Assembly (NCBI RefSeq): GCF_029953285.1
Contig: NZ_JASAOI010000005.1
Location: 1-64,000 of the forward strand
Reading direction: 5' to 3'
Length of the DNA stretch: 64,000 nt
From: Yinghuangia seranimata
GTDB taxonomy: Bacteria > Actinomycetota > Actinomycetes > Streptomycetales > Streptomycetaceae
Shown here one piece after another: positions 4,232 to 54,606 of the stretch; positions within the stretch are counted from its first letter, which is position 1, and each line of letters starts with the position of its first letter. The position numbers and the translations under genes were made by a program. The notes beneath the pieces are model-generated. The model was given only the letters and a program-made list of their open reading frames with translations, made no database searches and was not told where the DNA came from.

Positions 4232-5359
4232 GTGACTGACCCGCGCACTTCCGGACCGACGCCGTCCGACGCAACGCCCGCCGCACCGACCGTCAGCTCC
4301 TCGGCGGCCACCTCCAGCGCCGTCCCGGACGCCGTCCGCGACTCGGCCTTCCTGCGCGCCTGCCGCCGCGAACCCGTGCCGCACACGCCGGTGTGGTTCA
4401 TGCGCCAGGCCGGGCGCTCGCTGCCGGAGTACCGCAAGGTCCGCGAGGGCACCGCGATGCTCGAGTCCTGCATGCTGCCGGACCTCGTCACCGAGATCAC
4501 GCTGCAGCCGGTGCGACGGCACAACGTCGACGCGGCGATCTTCTTCAGCGACATCGTGGTGCCGCTCAAGGCGATCGGCGTCGACCTCGACATCAAGCCC
4601 GGCGTCGGGCCGGTCGTCGCGCACCCGATCCGGTCGCGGGAGGACCTCGCGCAGCTGCGCGACCTGACGCCCGAGGACGTCCCGTACATCACCGAGGCGG
4701 TCGGCCAGCTCACCCGCGAGCTCGGCGGCACCCCGCTGATCGGCTTCGCGGGCGCGCCGTTCACGCTGGCCAGCTACCTCGTCGAGGGCGGCCCGTCGAA
4801 GAACCACGAGTTCACCAAGGCGATGATGTACGGCGCCCCCGACCTGTGGGCCGAACTCCTCGACCGGTTGGCCGAGATCACCTCGCAGTTCCTCACCGTG
4901 CAGATCGAGGCGGGCGTCGCCGCCGTGCAGTTGTTCGACTCGTGGGCCGGTGCGCTGTCCGCGGCCGACTACCGGGCGTCGGTCATGCCGGCCAGCGCCA
5001 AGGTGCTGTCCGCCGTCGAGGGCTACGGCGTGCCGCGCATCCACTTCGGCGTCGGCACCGGCGAACTCCTCGGCCTCATGGGTGAGGCGGGCGCGGACGT
5101 CGTCGGCGTCGACTGGCGCATCCCGCTCGACGAGGCCGTGCGCCGCATCGGCCCCGGCAAGGCGGTCCAGGGCAACCTCGACCCGGCCGTGCTGTTCACG
5201 CCGGAGGCCGCGATGCGGGCCAAGGCCGACGAGGTGCTGGCCGCGGGGCGCGCGGCGGAGGGACACGTGTTCAACCTCGGCCACGGCGTCCTGCCGAACA
5301 CCGACCCGGAGCGGCTGACCGCGCTGGTCGAGTACGTGCACGAGGCTTCCGCGCGGTAG
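4232..5359 (+). CDS. hemE: Uroporphyrinogen decarboxylase
   Basis: Converts uroporphyrinogen III to coproporphyrinogen III by four decarboxylations, in the cytoplasm. The product is 375 aa, of which about 37 N-terminal residues are a Ser/Thr/Ala-rich extension. The family signature [16 protein letters not shown] is at 53-68, the active-site aspartate is D107 (FFSDIVVP), and the second signature [17 protein letters not shown] is present. The GTG at 4232 follows a GAGGA motif. Its product feeds the coproporphyrinogen oxidase encoded 2 kb downstream. A strong hairpin follows the stop. Confidence 0.96.
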
Positions 5360-5381
5360 TCCCTCACGACGTGTGGACGCG

Positions 5382-5416
5382 CCGCCGGGCCCGGGCCGAC
5401 CGTCCGGGCCCGGCGG
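5382..5416. terminator. Bidirectional hairpin between hemE and the DUF4349 gene
   Basis: A perfect 13-bp stem (5382-5394 with 5404-5416, GGGCCCGG core) and 9-nt loop lie between the convergent genes. Much of the same sequence recurs at 5465-5488, giving a second, imperfect hairpin. A run of ten G (5419-5428) lies between them. Confidence 0.75.
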
Positions 5417-5497
5417 GCGGGGGGGGGGTCCACCCGCCGGCGGGGCCGCCGCGCCGGGGCCCGCGGGCCGACCGTCCGGGCCCGGCGGCGCGTCCGG

Positions 5498-6670
5498 TCA
5501 GTCGTCCTCGGGTTCGACGCCCGGGGACTTGCTTGCGGACGGGGGCTCGGACGGCGGGGCGGGAGCGGCCGACGCGGCGGGAGCTGCGGACGGCGCGGCG
5601 GCGGGCTGCGCCGCGGGACGGGCCGCCGGGACCGGGCCCCACCGGTAGACCGGATCCGCCTCGACCTTCGCGGCCGCCGCGGCACGCGTCGTGCGCCACG
5701 CCGCGACCACCCGCGCCAGCGGCCTGCCGAGCCTCCGGTGCAGGAACCACAACGCGAACGCCAGCAGTCCGAACGGCAGTACGGCCGCCACCACGACGAG
5801 CAGCACCTCGACGGTGACCACGAGCCCGTGCCAGCCGGCCTTCAACGCACCGAGCACACTGTCGCCGAAGCCGTCGTCGTCGGACTCCTTCGCCTTCGCG
5901 GGCGCGGCCGGGGCGGGCCTCGGGTCGACGCGCAACGTGATCGTCGACAGGTCGGACTGCGCGCTCAGCGACTCCTGACGCTTCAGCAGCGCCTCCAGGT
6001 CGGACTCGCGCTTCGTCAGCTCGCTTTCCAACGACACGATCTCGCCGAGACTGGTCGCCTTCGCGAGCAGGTCGCGGACCCGCTCCACACTGCGCCGCTG
6101 CGTCTCGACGCGGCTGGCGACGTCCACGACCTGGTCGGTGATGTCGGTGGCACCGCGGTTCCGGGCGGTGACCGTGCCAAGGGCGCTCAGTCCGTCAAGG
6201 ACCTTGTCGAACTGGCCCGGCGGCACCTTGAGCGTGAGCGTCGTAGACGTGCTCCACTCCGCATCGCCCGCACCGCCACTCGGCTCCGCCGTCGCGGACT
6301 TGCCATCGCGCTTGGCCGTGACCGGAACCCGGGTCGTCTGCTCGCCCGCGATGAGCCCGTTCACCCCCGCGACGAGCGACCGCGCACTGGCCGCCGCCTG
6401 CTCCGGACTGTCCGCCTCGATCCGCAGATCGGCCGTCAGCACGAGCTTCCGCTGCGCGGGAGCCGGCTCCCCGGCCTTGTTCCCGACGGCCGCCCCGCCA
6501 CCGGCCCCCGTAGCCGGAGCCCCAAGCTGCGGAGCCGCCGAAGGCGCGGCGACGGCAGGCCCTCTTGCCGCCGACGTGTCACTGGCCTTGTCGTCGGCCC
6601 CGCCGGAACACCCGGCCACCAACACCACGACCCCGACAACCGCAACGAGCCCCGGCACGCGTCTGGACAT
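5498..6670 (-). CDS. DUF4349 lipoprotein with coiled coil and C-terminal membrane helix
   Basis: Predicted membrane-anchored protein of 390 aa. The N-terminus (MSRRVPGL...VLVAGC) is a lipoprotein signal with a lipobox cysteine at residue 21, followed by an Ala/Gly/Pro-rich linker. The DUF4349 domain (roughly 90-290) holds the paired strands and a central coiled coil (RVRDLLAKATSLGEIVSLES region), and one strong hydrophobic segment follows near residues 310-335 (VEVLLVVVAAVLPFGLLAF). The C-terminus is Pro/Ala/Ser-rich. DUF4349 proteins are widespread but of unclear function. The start at 6670 has a GGGGGG ribosome site; the frame stays open far upstream, but only this start yields a lipobox. 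Confidence 0.86.
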   Translation of the reverse strand: MSRRVPGLVAVVGVVVLVAGCSGGADDKASDTSAARGPAVAAPSAAPQLGAPATGAGGGAAVGNKAGEPAPAQRKLVLTADLRIEADSPEQAAASARSLVAGVNGLIAGEQTTRVPVTAKRDGKSATAEPSGGAGDAEWSTSTTLTLKVPPGQFDKVLDGLSALGTVTARNRGATDITDQVVDVASRVETQRRSVERVRDLLAKATSLGEIVSLESELTKRESDLEALLKRQESLSAQSDLSTITLRVDPRPAPAAPAKAKESDDDGFGDSVLGALKAGWHGLVVTVEVLLVVVAAVLPFGLLAFALWFLHRRLGRPLARVVAAWRTTRAAAAAKVEADPVYRWGPVPAARPAAQPAAAPSAAPAASAAPAPPSEPPSASKSPGVEPEDD

Positions 6671-8938: not shown

Positions 8939-9685
8939 ATGACTGACGCGACCACGCAGGACCCCGACATCCCCCAGACCACCCCCGAGCGGGTTCCGCC
9001 GCGCCGCAAGGCACGCGACCTCAACGAGGTCATCCGCTACACCATGTGGTCGGTCTTCCGGCTGCGCGGCCCCCTCCCCGACGACCGGCTCGCGATGGCG
9101 ACCGAGGTCGACGCGCTGTTCGAGCGGCTGCTCGACAAGGACGTGGTGGTCCGCGGCACGTACGACGTGTCGGGCCTGCGCGCGGACGCGGACGTCATGG
9201 TCTGGTGGCACGCGGAGTCGTCGGACGAGCTCCAGGAGGCGTACAACCTCTTCCGCCGCACCGCGCTGGGCCGGCTGCTGGAGCCGGTGTGGTCGAACAT
9301 GGCGCTGCACCGCCCGGCGGAGTTCAACAAGAGCCACATCCCGGCGTTCCTGGCCGAGGAGACGCCGCGCAACTACGTCGCGGTGTACCCGTTCGTGCGC
9401 TCGTACGAGTGGTACCTGCTGGACGACGGCGAGCGGCGCCGCCTGCTGGCCGAGCACGGCCAGATGGCGCGCGGCTACCCGGACGTGCGCGCCAACACGG
9501 TGCCGTCGTTCGCGCTGGGCGACTACGAGTGGATTCTGGCGTTCGAGGCCGACGAGCTGTACCGGATCGTCGACCTGATGCGCCACCTGCGCGGCTCGGA
9601 GACGCGCCGGCACGTGCGCGAGGAGGTCCCGTTCTACACGGGCCGCCGCCGCGCGGTCCTGGAGCTGCTGACCGGTCTGGCGTAG
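8939..9685 (+). CDS. hemQ: Coproheme decarboxylase (HemQ/ChdC)
   Basis: Last enzyme of coproporphyrin-dependent heme synthesis: it decarboxylates coproheme twice to heme b using peroxide. It is 248 aa, a chlorite-dismutase-fold protein. The catalytic tyrosine is expected at Y150 ([15 protein letters not shown]) and the proximal heme histidine at H173 ([15 protein letters not shown]). The C-terminal [18 protein letters not shown] is typical. Residues 1-27 are a disordered Asp/Pro/Arg-rich lead. The ATG at 8939 is preceded by CGGAGGGGG. It follows the oxidase gene on the same strand, so co-transcription is likely. Residue roles are taken from family knowledge. Confidence 0.95.
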
Positions 9686-10987: not shown

Positions 10988-11099
10988 GACCGGCACGATG
11001 GCAGGCGTGTTGCGGTTGCGGCGAGGGGATTTCGCTGGCGCTTCGCCGCGGTGGCGGGGACTGCGCCTGCCTGCACCGTCGTGGCGGGGACTGCGCCTG

Positions 11100-11440
11100 T
11101 CTGCACCGTCCCTGACCTGCACCGCGGTTGGCGGCCTCCCGCCCCTCCCGCTTTTGGATTTTCGCGCGGCCGTCCCGCGCGTCAAGCCGCGGTGGACCTG
11201 CCGCGGTTCAGGTGGCCTGGGACGGGGTTGTGGGGGCGGCTTGACCCGCGGGCCGTCCGCGCTAACGACCTTGGCAACTAGCGGGAGGGGCGGGGGGTGT
11301 GGCGCCGCGTCATTTCGCTTCGCGCTGCCCGCCTGCGGTTCACGTGGGGTGGCGGGCGCGGGGCCTGGAGCGTGGGGTGCGCGGCCTGCCCGGTGCCCGG
11401 GCCCGCCCCGCGCCACCAGGCCACCAGGCCATCGGCCCCA
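11100..11440 (-). repeat. Palindromic intergenic repeat, copy B
   Basis: Core at 11140-11292 (153 bp) between CGCCCCTCCCGC and GCGGGAGGGGCG, with the inner arms GCGTCAAGCCGC and GCGGCTTGACCCGCGGGCCG. It is oriented opposite to copy C, with which it forms an inverted pair of about 250 bp arms around a 160-bp centre. Flanks include GGTGTGGCGCCGCGTCA, matched in copy C. No coding potential is evident. Confidence 0.85.
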
Positions 11441-11455
11441 TATTGAAAACAATGT

Positions 11456-11500
11456 TCAAAAGAACCAAATGGCCACCTGGTGGCCATTTGGTTCTTTTGA
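11456..11500. repeat. Perfect 45-bp palindrome at the centre of the B/C pair
   Basis: Arms of 22 bp (11456-11477 and 11479-11500) are exact reverse complements around one central T. The arm reads AAAAGAACCAAATGGCCACC in part, AT-rich compared with everything around it. It is the strongest hairpin or cruciform candidate in the window. It could be a terminator, a protein-binding palindrome or a recombination end; nothing adjacent identifies which. Confidence 0.9.
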
Positions 11501-11599: not shown

Positions 11600-11850
11600 G
11601 CGCGGGCACCACGCTGGGACCGCAGGCGAGCAGCGCGAAGTGACGTGACGCGGCGCCACACTCCCCGCCCCTCCCGCTAGGTGCGAGGTGTTCAGCGCGG
11701 ACGGCCCGCGGGTCAAGCCGCCCCCTTGACCTCACGCCAGGCCACCTGAACCGCGGCAGGTCCACCGCGGCTTGACGCGCGGGACGGCCGCGCGAAAATC
11801 AAAGAGCGGGAGGGGCGGGAGGCCGCCAACAGCGGGACAGGCCAGGGACG
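11600..11850 (+). repeat. Palindromic intergenic repeat, copy C
   Basis: Core at 11666-11817 (152 bp), opposite in orientation to copy B. The outer edge (GGAGGCCGCCAACAG...GGGACGGTGCAGG) is the reverse complement of the outer edge of B. It ends about 30 bp before the stop of the small partner gene of the DUF692 operon, which reads toward it. Confidence 0.85.
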
Positions 11851-11882
11851 GTGCAGGCACCGGAAGTCCACAGGGCGACGGG

Positions 11883-12380
11883 TCAGGTCCAGCGGGGCCT
11901 GTCGGTGTGGTCCGGGCGGGGGCCGGGCAAGACGGCGCGCAGCCGCCTGAGCAGGCCCGGGCGGTGGGCGTGCTCGGTGGGCTGGTGCGTGTGCGGCTCG
12001 AGGAGCGTGGCGGCGGCCTCGGGCAGTCGGCCCTCGGTGCGCAGGTGCTCCGCGAAGGCGGCGGCGTCCGCCCGGCTGCCCCCCTCGGCGGGCTTGGGGT
12101 GGGTACTCGCCCAGACCGTGAACTCCTTGGGCCACAGCTCGGCTTCGGTGAGTTCGGCGACAAGGTCGGGGGAGGAGCGGGCGACGGACTCGCGGCGTTT
12201 GGCGGCCAGCGAGAGGACCTGGATCCCGACCCGGTCGGCGTCGAAGCCGTCCGGCACGGGCCCGCCCGCGACGAGGGCGGTGAGGAGTTCGGTCTGCCGG
12301 CGCGCGAGTTCGGCGCGCAGGTCGTCGACAGCGGAATCCGCCGCCTCGACCCGGGGCGCCGGAACCGCGTCCGCGCTCAT
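11883..12380 (-). CDS. Small partner protein of the DUF692 operon (SCO6045-like)
   Basis: Soluble protein of 165 aa, third gene of the TIGR04222-DUF692 operon. Its ATG (12380) overlaps the DUF692 stop by four bases (ATGA), so translation is coupled. Residues 20-125 look alpha-helical ([21 protein letters not shown], then [20 protein letters not shown]), and [17 protein letters not shown] matches what I remember of the 'SCO6045-like' C-terminal domain; the tail is His/Pro/Arg-rich. Many MNIO enzymes need a small partner that binds the leader of their substrate. A comparable role here is inference. Confidence 0.8.
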
Positions 12381-13294
12381 GCCGCGCTCTCCACTCGGCT
12401 CGCCGCCGAGTCCCCCACCCGCTGCGCCACCCGTGTCCGCGTCTCCGCCCGGTCGACCACGTCGCGGATGGCGGCCAGTTCGGCCTCCAGCTCGTCGGTC
12501 GGCGGGTAGTTGGCGTCGCGTTCCAGGAGGATCGCGGGCGGGACGTGGCGCTCGCACAGCAGCGCCAGCACGTCCAGGACCTCGGCCGTCACCGGGTGCG
12601 CGTGCGTGTCGTGCCATACGCCGTCCCGCATCAGGCCGCCGGCGACGTGGACGTACGCCACGGCCTCCAGCGGCAGCGCGTTCAGCGTCGCCGCCAGGTC
12701 GATGCGGTGGTTGACCCGCTCGGTGTGCAGGTTCGCCACGTCCACGAGCAGCGCCACGCCGGTGCGTTCGACGAGTTCGGCGAGGAACTCGCCTTCGGTG
12801 AGCTCGTTGTCCGGCCACGTGATCAGCGTCGCGGGGTTCTCCAGGGCGAGCGGCACCGGCAGCAGGTCCTGCGCGACGCGGATGTTCTCCGCGACGACCC
12901 GCAGCGCGTCGCGGGTGCGCGGCACCGGCAGCAGGTGGCCGGCCTCCATGCCGCCCGCGCGGACGAACGCCAGGTGCTCGCTCACCAGCGGTGCGCCCAG
13001 CCCTTCCGCGACCTCGGCGAGCCGGGCGAGGCGCGCCGGGTCGGGGCGGTCCGCGCCGCCGAGGCCGAGCGAGACGCCGTGCGGCACCACGGTGGTGCCG
13101 CGCTCGCGCAGCGCGCGGAGCGACTCGGGCAGGTGCCCCGCGCACACGTTCTCGGCGATGACCTCGACGAAGTCCACGCCGGCGAGGCGTTCGACGGTCA
13201 GGTCGATCTCGGGGCGCCAGCCGATCCCGACCGCGGCCGGCGTCCCCCCGCCGAACGCCGCCGCGGTCACCGGGGCCGCCTTCGCCGCACTCAT
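12377..13294 (-). CDS. DUF692 / MNIO-type multinuclear iron enzyme
   Basis: TIM-barrel metalloenzyme of the DUF692 (MNIO) family, 305 aa. Characterised relatives (MbnB, TglH, ChrH) use two or three irons and O2 to modify cysteines in peptide substrates. Likely ligands are H72 (VPHGVSL), E106-H107 (VSEHLAF), E152-N153 (LALENP), D185 and N188 (LLVDVANLH), H216 (YVHVAGG), D229-H231-H233 (HDTHAHPV) and E258 (ILLERD). The start ATG (13294) shares its A with the stop of the upstream membrane-protein gene (TGATG), and its stop overlaps the next start. The Cys-rich tail of the upstream product is the obvious candidate substrate. Confidence 0.93.
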
Positions 13295-14400
13295 CACGAC
13301 GACCCGCAGGACGAACCGCAGGAGGAGCCGCACGAGGACGACGAACACGACGAGGACGAGCACGAGGAGGAGGAGCAGGACGACGACGAGCAGCTCGACG
13401 ACGACCCGCACGACGACGAGGAGGAGCAGCTCGACGCCCCGCACCCGCCGCCCTTGAAGCCGTCCGAGCACGACGCCGACCCGCACCACGACGCCGATCC
13501 GGAGTCGGAGCCGCTGTCGGACGACGCGCACGACGGACCGGAGTCGCCCCCGCCGCAGCCGTCGCCGCCGCCCCCGTCGCCCGCCCCGGCGATCGCGCGC
13601 ACCCGCTGCTCGCGGAAGACGTCGCGCAGGTCGGGGTCGGTCAGCCGGGACAGCCCGTAGACCGCGAGCAGTCCGAGCCCGGTGGCGCCCGCCGCGGTGC
13701 GGCCGAGTCCGGTCTGCAGGTTCACGTCGGTGCGCAGCCGCCGCACATGGGTCAGGCCCTGTCCGGTGACGCGGCTGTTGGGCCGCAGCGCGGTGACGAC
13801 GGTGAGGATGATGCTGTAGGCCAGCCCGAAGATGTGGGTGAACAGCGCGAGGAGGAACGTGCCGACGTGGGCGTCGGCCGGGTCGTCGTGGCTCGAGAAC
13901 ATCAGGATCTGCGTGAGCAGCGAGGCCACCGTGATCGGGATGCTGACGCGCGCCAGGATCTTCGCGACGCGCTTCGCGCCGCCGTCGTTGGGGCGGCGGA
14001 TCAGCCCGGCGGCCAGCAGCCGGTCGCCGATCGCCTGGACGCCCGCGCTGCGGGCGCCCAGCAGGCGTACGGTCGACAGCCGCGCGGTGCCGCCGCTGCG
14101 GGTGACCGCGAGGAGGACGCCGTGCGTGACGGCGTCGGCGGGGCCGCGGCCGGTCGCGGTGACCGTGCCGTCGCGGCCGATGTGGATCGCGCCGCTGGTG
14201 CGCAGCGCGAGGATCGCGAGGTCGGCGACGCGCGGCGGGCCGCCGCACAGGAAGGCCGCCTCGTAGACGTCGAGGCGGTCGACCCTCGGTACGGGTCCTG
14301 ACCGCCTGCCACGCGCGCGTCGGACGCCCGTGACGACGAAGAACAGCGTCACGAACACCATCCACGCGACATACGCGCCAAGTGCGATGCTCGGGTTCAT
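13294..14400 (-). CDS. TIGR04222 membrane protein with Cys/Ser/Gly-rich tail (candidate MNIO substrate)
   Basis: Membrane protein of 368 aa. An N-terminal hydrophobic segment (residues 5-25) is followed by a conserved domain (about 40-270) with more hydrophobic stretches near 150-170 and 185-205. After residue 275 the sequence is almost only Gly, Ser, Asp and Cys, with 14 cysteines; near the end they fall every fifth residue (C-SSSS-C units) and then every fourth ([12 protein letters not shown]). TIGR04222 proteins with low-complexity Cys tails next to DUF692 genes are a recurring pairing. I infer the tail is modified by the enzyme encoded next and may bind metal. Start at 14400 ([13 protein letters not shown]) opens the first helix. 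Confidence 0.9.
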
Positions 14401-14552: not shown

Positions 14553-14984
14553 TCAGGCCTCGGCGTCGTCCGCCGGCTCCAGGCGCATGCTGATCGAGTT
14601 GATGCAGTAGCGCTGGTTGCGCGGCGTGTAGCCCTCGCCGTCGAAGACGTGGCCCAGGTGCGAGCCGCAGTTGGCGCAGCGCACCTCGGTGCGGACCATG
14701 CCGTACCCGCGGTCCTCGCGCAGCTCGACCTTCTCCGGGTCGGCGTAGTCGAAGGACGGCCAGCCGCAGTGCGAGTCGAACTTGTCCTGCGAGCGGAAGA
14801 GCTCGGCGCCGCACGCGCGACAGCTGTACACGCCGACGGTCTTGGTGTCGGTGTACTCGCCGGTGAACGCGCGCTCGGTGCCGGCCTCGCGCAGCACGTG
14901 GTACTCCTCGGGGGAGAGCACCGACAGCCACTCGTCGACGCTCTTGACCACGTTGTACTTCGGGGTGCCGGGTGTGGTTGTCAT
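14553..14984 (-). CDS. msrB: Peptide-methionine (R)-S-oxide reductase
   Basis: Repairs the R-sulfoxide of methionine in oxidised proteins, 143 aa. Zinc cysteines are C55/C58 (SCRACG) and C103/C106 (RCANCG), the catalytic cysteine is C127 (RYCINS), and GHVFDGEG precedes it. The second redox cysteine may be C73 (SHCGWPSF). The ATG at 14984 is preferred to one five codons upstream because [12 protein letters not shown] matches the usual N-terminus. It lies downstream of murC on the same strand, with a strong hairpin between. Confidence 0.96.
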
Positions 14985-15004
14985 GTCCACATCCAACACC
15001 GGGA

Positions 15005-54194: not shown

Positions 54195-54606
54195 TGGGGG
54201 CTGCACCGTTCCGGGGCTGGCTTTTAGTGGTGGCCTGACGCCCCTCCCGCTTTTTTGATTTTCGCTTGGACGGCCCGCGCGTCAAGGCGCGGTGGGGTCT
54301 TCTTCGTGCTGTTGGCCTGTCCCGGGGTTCGGGAGGCGCCTTGACCCGCGGGCCGTCCGCGCTGACTACCTCGCACCTAGCGGGAGGGGCGCGGGGTGTG
54401 AAGGCGCTTTTATGCTCTGTGCTGCCGGGCTGCGGTTTGCGTGTGGTGCGGCAGGTTTTGTTGCTGGGGTTCGTTGCGCTGCCGGGGTGGCGTTCCAGCG
54501 TGGGGCGCGCCGGGCTCCTCTCCCTGGTCACTGTGTCGTCACGTATGCGAATCACCGAAACTCCCTCATCGGGGGGTCTCGGCGTCACACTCGCGTCACA
54601 CGCCAC
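54195..54606 (-). repeat. Palindromic intergenic repeat, copy F (long form)
   Basis: Core at 54239-54391 (153 bp). Together with the leader and the GTCACGTATGCGAATCAC tail (54528-54600), it matches copy A over its full length in inverted orientation. It fills the space between arfB and the AhpD-like gene. Confidence 0.85.

Follow-up and report, generated by a model that had tools for sequence, protein, structure and literature searches.

The window analysed here is a stretch of 64,000 nucleotides from Yinghuangia seranimata, and on its minus strand, from position 14400 down to 11883, lies an operon of three overlapping genes. These encode, in order of transcription, a membrane protein of the TIGR04222 family, an iron enzyme of the peptide-oxidising MNIO (DUF692) family and a small protein, here called X. 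The features of the operon and of its surroundings to which we refer are the following:

13294 to 14400, minus strand: TIGR04222 membrane protein, the proposed substrate (368 aa; domain cut-off, hydropathy and AlphaFold2 model)
13297 to 13641, minus strand: C-terminal stretch past the TIGR04222 domain match, the proposed modification site (115 aa, 14 Cys)
12377 to 13294, minus strand: MNIO (DUF692) iron enzyme (305 aa; TGATG start/stop overlap with the TIGR04222 gene; nine TglH-type ligands)
11883 to 12380, minus strand: partner protein X (165 aa; ATGA start/stop overlap with the MNIO gene; all-helical model)
14553 to 14999: MsrB, a methionine sulfoxide reductase, immediately upstream of the operon
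8939 to 9685: HemQ, beyond the operon (NCBIfam HemQ_actino, 356.9 bits)

The gene coordinates bear out an earlier, sequence-only reading of this DNA, which had described three genes coupled by TGATG and ATGA overlaps. Chance can be set aside as the source of this arrangement, because the linkage with a Cys tail recurs in nine families of the class and the two further TIGR04222 proteins that were found in this genome lie away from its single MNIO gene and are both devoid of tail Cys. Judged from its sequence, the operon is a confirmed and well-conserved one, of a kind that has been published as a candidate system.

Neither neighbouring gene was retained as a functional companion. MsrB was found in only 4 of the 135 loci searched (the window, Yinghuangia soli L250, G249 (L106) and Crossiella L244), which is too few to weigh. 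HemQ stands beside 23 of the 52 named loci among the matches listed, and within 2.5-kb flanks it adjoins 25 of the 36 MNIO loci of the window's own family against none of the 47 loci of other families; since it is confined in this way, the linkage probably reflects shared synteny and was rejected as a functional one. Just downstream of the operon there is also a non-coding element of about 250-280 bp, present as two inverted copies (11070-11351 and 11607-11887, about 86% complementary), and between these two copies stands an inverted repeat whose 22-bp arms match perfectly around a 1-base loop (TCAAAAGAACCAAATGGCCACC, 11456-11500). A further copy of the element occupies positions 54201-54400 of the window, at least 40 strong matches to it occur genome-wide (all at or below E 2e-36, with 40 scored out of 225 candidates), and the element matches itself in reverse too.

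The first protein of the operon exceeds the NCBIfam TIGR04222 cut-off (87.8 bits vs 43). Its AlphaFold2 model has three long helices (residues 3-31, 141-170 and 178-204, of 27-30 residues each), a globular domain at about 45-130, short helices between 207 and 275 and, from about residue 280, a disordered tail of Ser, Gly and Cys; a comparison of the model with the PDB gave no meaningful match. The sequence-only reading had counted 14 Cys in regular CSSSS and CGSS steps. Fourteen Cys do indeed lie within the 115 residues past the domain, but the regular steps are limited to approximately the last 50 residues and the Cys before these are irregularly placed. Antoine et al. (2025; PMC12452194) have described, in the sections of their paper that concern this family, TIGR04222 membrane proteins with Ser/Gly/Cys tails encoded beside MNIO genes, and proposed them as putative large MNIO substrates. 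The central idea of the sequence-only reading, a large anchored protein as substrate, had thus already been published. The operon resembles the clusters described there in the family of its membrane protein and its tail, in the family of its enzyme, in the position of the partner after the enzyme and in the mostly actinobacterial (Actinomycetota) distribution. The TIGR04222 domain is also mentioned in the part of another report that deals with a Pseudonocardia bacteriocin cluster (PMC5183585).

Among 96 Cys-tailed relatives, 99 pairs with domains 60-93% identical were compared by an alignment scheme that does not favour Cys; in these pairs, which are not independent of each other, the tails differed on average by 7 residues in length and by 0.8 in Cys number, and 92.6% of the Cys columns were retained, as against 83.2% for Gly, 76.6% for Ser and 61.2% for the other residues. 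By this sequence measure the tail Cys are better conserved than tail Gly or Ser. Of 313 tail Cys in the MNIO-linked proteins, 245 are followed by Gly, 49 by Ser, 18 by Ala and a single one by Asp; in the window's own tail Ser is about as frequent in this position as Gly. Two side observations concern this family. Its alignment gives weak matches to the winged-helix model HTH_20 (4 of 80 members) and to DUF2207_C (2 of 80), which hints at a winged-helix-like domain; and in Streptomyces sp. WAC08241 (L247, about 5294-6490) the TIGR04222 gene is apparently split over two frames, with the Cys tail off-frame from most of the domain; either an error of sequencing or a damaged gene might account for this.

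The second gene product belongs to Pfam PF05114 (DUF692; E 1.1e-82, 277.7 bits vs a cut-off of 25). The full set of DUF692 ligands claimed for it earlier is present: all nine iron ligands of TglH, as given in the published sections on that enzyme, align with H72, H107, E152, D185, N188, H216, D229, H231 and E258. Across 84 aligned rows, made up of the window's enzyme and 83 locus sequences that include the window's own once more, eight of these ligands never vary, while E258 occurs in 82 rows and the other two have a gap there. In NCBIfam the enzyme scores best against BufB and HvfB, in both cases below the cut-off. Bufferin membership of the operon was rejected on the score of the BufB equivalog (201.5 bits, cut-off 310) together with the absence of a DUF2063 match in X, and methanobactin membership on that of the MbnB equivalog (40.5 bits, cut-off 325). 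We take SCO6045 to be the MNIO of Streptomyces coelicolor, an assumption that carries no weight in the argument. That gene figures in a list of genes induced by H2O2, with a 3-fold change, in the portion of PMC4991794 concerned.

The third gene product was previously described as a small helical protein, and AlphaFold2 models X with confidence (pLDDT 86) as entirely helical. In Pfam nothing matches X at E 1 or below, DUF2063 included, and in NCBIfam there is a sub-threshold match only (E 0.12); partner domains compared with Pfam (X and five relatives) and with NCBIfam (X and two relatives) gave no model above cut-off, and the partner profile produced three matches among PDB sequences (best E 0.076), none of them meaningful. 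When the AlphaFold2 model of X was searched by Foldseek against 350,542 PDB chains, the first of its 19 matches was 7dz9_C of the MbnABC complex, a chain whose length (180) points to MbnC; this match is weak (E 1.6, probability 0.41, TM 0.39), and neither NGO1945 nor TglI is named among the 19. In a profile comparison with DUF2063 (4 sequences) X is colinear but weakly so (hhalign probability 11.5%, E 0.0026). These weak fold and profile matches lead us to read X as a putative minimal DUF2063/MbnC-like partner, presumably without an RRE domain because of its length and its all-helical model. X lies directly after the MNIO gene, with the ATGA overlap, which is the position of a PME-type 2 partner, and it lacks the DUF2063 signature.

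X is homologous to a C-terminal extension of about 160-320 aa in Streptomyces-type and other MNIOs, and the possibility that it is an unrelated small protein was rejected, the partner domain being one that recurs with MNIO. The domain was looked for with an iterated profile at 83 of the 107 MNIO rows described below, namely the 69 linked to a TIGR04222 gene and 14 hand-chosen of the 38 unlinked ones (threshold 1e-4, with E-values valid for that small set). It was present at all 69 of the linked loci, fused to the MNIO in 38 and encoded by a separate downstream gene in 31, and at 11 of the 14 unlinked loci, the other three being without it. Across the 394 genomes of the survey, in a search that scored up to 13 candidates in each and so could overlook single copies, the domain occurs in 89, of which 88 have an MNIO; six MNIO genomes gave no match, and the one partner-domain genome that lacks an MNIO (G197) owes its place to a marginal match (E 3.4e-4). 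Of the 52 named relatives in the matches listed, the partner domain was found in 48, and 40 have a TIGR04222 protein with two Cys steps or more; the closest in that list is Yinghuangia soli (81% identity), where the TIGR04222 gene likewise precedes the enzyme and encodes a similar tail. The passages of PMC12452194 on such clusters assign PME-type 2 partners to at least 10% of them and leave many apparently partnerless, unlike the loci examined here, and no MNIO-partner fusion is seen in its passages on fusions and chimaeras. We regard the natural fusions as meaningful because an artificial one activates: the fused HvfB-HvfC construct is described in the relevant part of PMC13419390 as giving markedly more product than the co-expressed proteins.

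The distribution of the Cys tail was analysed in the same 394 genomes of the window's class. Among the matches listed, 136 TIGR04222 rows above the cut-off occur in 106 of the genomes, a count that leaves out weaker rows and rests on at most seven scored candidates per genome, so that single copies may be missed; these were paired with 107 MNIO rows in 94 genomes, omitting the two weakest fragment rows (G198:C116, 9.9e-5 and 8.3e-4). The MNIO gene is within 8 kb of a TIGR04222 gene in 69 of the 107 cases, every time on the same strand, and the linked TIGR04222 rows precede the enzyme in 45 of 79 instances and follow it in 34. If a Cys-stepped tail is defined by at least two Cys-spacer-Cys steps, such tails are found in 58 genomes, 57 of which have an MNIO; in the exception (G079) the downstream side of the gene meets the end of the contig. 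TIGR04222 genomes without Cys steps have an MNIO in 21 of 48 cases. By genus the figures are 23 of 24 with Cys steps vs 1 of 12 without, and Fisher's test gives p 4e-11 by genome and 2e-7 by genus, although counts over related genomes are not independent. Co-occurrence, on which the earlier reading had staked its proposal, thus holds in 57 of 58 genomes for the tail and at 69 of 69 linked loci for the partner, and a coupled MNIO with a dedicated partner, acting on the Cys tail, is the best reading of the operon.

A finer comparison bears on whether the tail is a substrate at all. Complete Gly/Ser/Cys-rich tails have at least three Cys in their last 60 residues in 56 of 56 MNIO-linked proteins, in 7 of 12 that are unlinked but in MNIO genomes, and in 2 of 9 from genomes without MNIO, one of these two being G079 at its contig edge. 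Thirteen genomes have a linked copy as well as an unlinked one; the former has more Cys steps in seven of them, fewer in one (G249) and the same number in five. There are, then, seven Cys-rich Gly/Ser tails in MNIO genomes that are not near the MNIO gene. One could suppose that MNIO and X act elsewhere and that the tail is an unmodified strip of thiols which binds metal or serves in redox reactions, coupled to the enzyme through a shared pathway. The presence of X at 11 of the 14 unlinked MNIO loci, and the persistence of MNIO and X beside tail-less TIGR04222 proteins described in the next paragraph, would both suit this explanation; the climb from 2 of 9 to 56 of 56, and the fact that the known MNIO enzymes, as far as the account in PMC12452194 goes, modify a precursor encoded adjacently, speak against it. 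We consider it rather improbable.

Some loci do not conform to the simple model. A Cys tail is missing at 15 of the 68 MNIO loci whose linked TIGR04222 protein is complete; besides G181 these comprise 14 loci of a Streptomyces type, a genus label inferred from named relatives of the same layout. Their TIGR04222 proteins end 12-25 residues past the domain, but the partner is kept and the MNIO retains all nine ligands. Since the ligands are intact though the tail is absent, the MNIO at these 14 loci must either have another job or have lost its substrate, and the sequence-only reading offers no account of them. In four (L089, L091, L078 and L084) of six tail-less loci whose gene order was read, a gene for an extra predicted membrane-anchored protein, presumably a DUF4142-like one, stands between the enzyme and the TIGR04222 gene; no candidate Cys substrate of at least 50 aa was seen near these four. 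More generally, 32 MNIO loci at which no TIGR04222 protein is Cys-stepped were scanned for ORFs of at least 50 aa on the MNIO strand with third-position G+C above 75% and at least 4 Cys, a scan which misses smaller peptides. Another Cys-stepped ORF was found in three, none of them among the 14 tail-less loci. The three ORFs, all Gly-rich and beside the MNIO, are given in MNIO-strand coordinates:

L193, 3631 to 3903: Cys-stepped Gly-rich ORF
L194, 1059 to 2402: Cys-stepped Gly-rich ORF
L196, 1059 to 2447: Cys-stepped Gly-rich ORF

From their sequences these are possible further substrates. The three loci, of the genomes G324, G284 and G355, have no TIGR04222 row above the cut-off, and the Cys-stepped ORF beside the MNIO counts in favour of the reading preferred below. 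The tail-less loci would be explained if the TIGR04222 protein were a membrane scaffold that recruits MNIO and X to a separate peptide, the true substrate, and the winged-helix-like cytosolic domain hinted at by HTH_20 would agree with such a function. The ORF scan nonetheless brought to light no such peptide at a tail-less locus, with the reservation that those below 50 aa would escape it, and the good conservation of the tail Cys also speaks against a scaffold; we think this alternative very improbable.

On which side of the membrane the tail lies was judged from charges, hydropathy and the AlphaFold2 model. Averaged over 65 proteins that clearly have three helices, Lys and Arg together number 0.06 before the first helix and 2.8 after it, 3.1 before the second, 0.7 in the loop of the hairpin and 4.9 after the third. 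Their frequency per residue is 0.23 beside the helix hairpin vs 0.09 in its loop. In the window protein too the charge and hydropathy counts place the positive charge after rather than before the first helix, as in an N-out anchor. When each of the 58 Cys-stepped proteins was assigned by its charges, the tail fell inside in 45, outside in 7, was tied in 1 and fell neither way in 5. A fourth helix of membrane hydropathy is lacking in the window protein (maximum KD19 about 1.1) and by the family median (1.03), and the AlphaFold2 model contains no helix longer than 20 residues after residue 204, where a helix of 14 residues (239-252) is found. The charge distribution and the model therefore favour three membrane helices and a predicted cytosolic tail, contrary to the periplasmic one which Antoine et al., in their passage on predicted topology, put forward (PMC12452194). 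The notion of an exposed strip in the earlier reading is correspondingly weakened, the tail being more likely at the cytosolic face.

There is a rival to this topology: modification would take place in the cytosol or as the protein is inserted, after which the tail would come to lie outside as an extracytoplasmic copper chelator, in the manner of the bufferins. Apart from the published periplasmic prediction, it could draw on the content of Lys and Arg in the Cys tail, which at 0.04% is as low as it often is in translocated segments and would equally suit an exported tail, on the seven proteins with reversed charges, and on a hydrophobic stretch preceding the tail (mean KD19 at least 1.6) in 20 of 113 proteins, a possible fourth helix, on account of which the family may be mixed in topology. 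With the positive-inside charges of 45 of the 58 proteins and the lack of a fourth helix weighing on the other side, we judge export to be unlikely, if the least so of the alternatives considered here.

The nature of the modification may be approached through the characterised systems. The operon resembles those of the bufferins and captophorins (BufABC, HvfABC and FonABC) in that BufB and HvfB are the best matches of the enzyme and in its repeated Cys sites, often Cys-Gly. It differs from them in the scores of the enzyme, in its proposed substrate, a predicted multi-pass membrane protein rather than a peptide with a Sec signal, and in X, with neither the DUF2063 signature nor, apparently, the RRE domain. 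With methanobactin MbnB-MbnC it shares little beyond the weak first match of the X model. TglI is, in the published sections on it, an obligatory partner with a helical N-terminal domain, in which it may resemble X, and an added RRE domain, in which it differs; the TglH-TglI substrate is the peptide TglA-Cys, unlike the membrane-protein tail proposed here. According to the relevant parts of PMC13097082, BufB/HvfB-like systems make 5-thiooxazole, and FonBC prefers Cys-Gly and does not process variants with a charged follower; the signs of 5-thiooxazole given there are a mass lower by about 4 Da for each Cys and an absorbance near 305 nm. The residues that follow the tail Cys (245 Gly and 1 Asp among 313) fit this preference, by analogy, and do not prove the same product. 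The thioamide or oxazolone previously suggested is not supported, as the best-matching characterised families, BufB and HvfB, belong to systems that make 5-thiooxazole.

The reading that we prefer, and hold to be probable, is thus of a membrane-anchored protein accompanied by a two-part enzyme which oxidises its cytosolic tail, the Cys becoming most likely 5-thiooxazoles that serve as metal or redox groups at the inner face. X would bind the MNIO and complete the active holoenzyme, which in the cytosol would act on the disordered Ser/Gly/Cys tail and convert several of its Cys, most likely to 5-thiooxazoles of the type made by BufB/HvfB-type enzymes. The finished protein would remain in the cytoplasmic membrane, its N-terminus outside, with three helices and with the domain and tail inside, and would line the inner face with soft-metal (copper) or thiol/redox-active groups. 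In its outline the mechanism of the sequence-only reading is likely to be correct; the partner and the membrane side are seen differently here, and probably the chemistry too. A more specific proposal, which we advance tentatively and consider less likely true than false, is that the protein is never exported but stays permanently integrated in the membrane, and that the MNIO holoenzyme, often a natural fusion with the partner, turns its low-complexity cytosolic tail into a series of heterocycle thiolates along the inner side of the membrane; the result would be an intracellular, tethered metal or redox buffer of the Actinomycetota, unlike MNIO products of the bufferin type, which are exported.

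The literature searched contained neither a mass spectrum nor a knock-out for any system of the TIGR04222-MNIO kind. What is new in the present analysis are the counts that couple the tail to the MNIO, the identity of the partner domain and its fusions, the evidence for a cytosolic tail and the conservation of the tail Cys. The tail-less Streptomyces-type loci raise a new question, that of the role of the MNIO there. With a partner at every linked locus examined, natural fusions and a tail that is likely cytosolic, the question of whether the tail is modified becomes directly testable; if it is, the work of MNIO enzymes as maturases would extend beyond small peptides to large membrane proteins, and this in a widespread actinobacterial operon.
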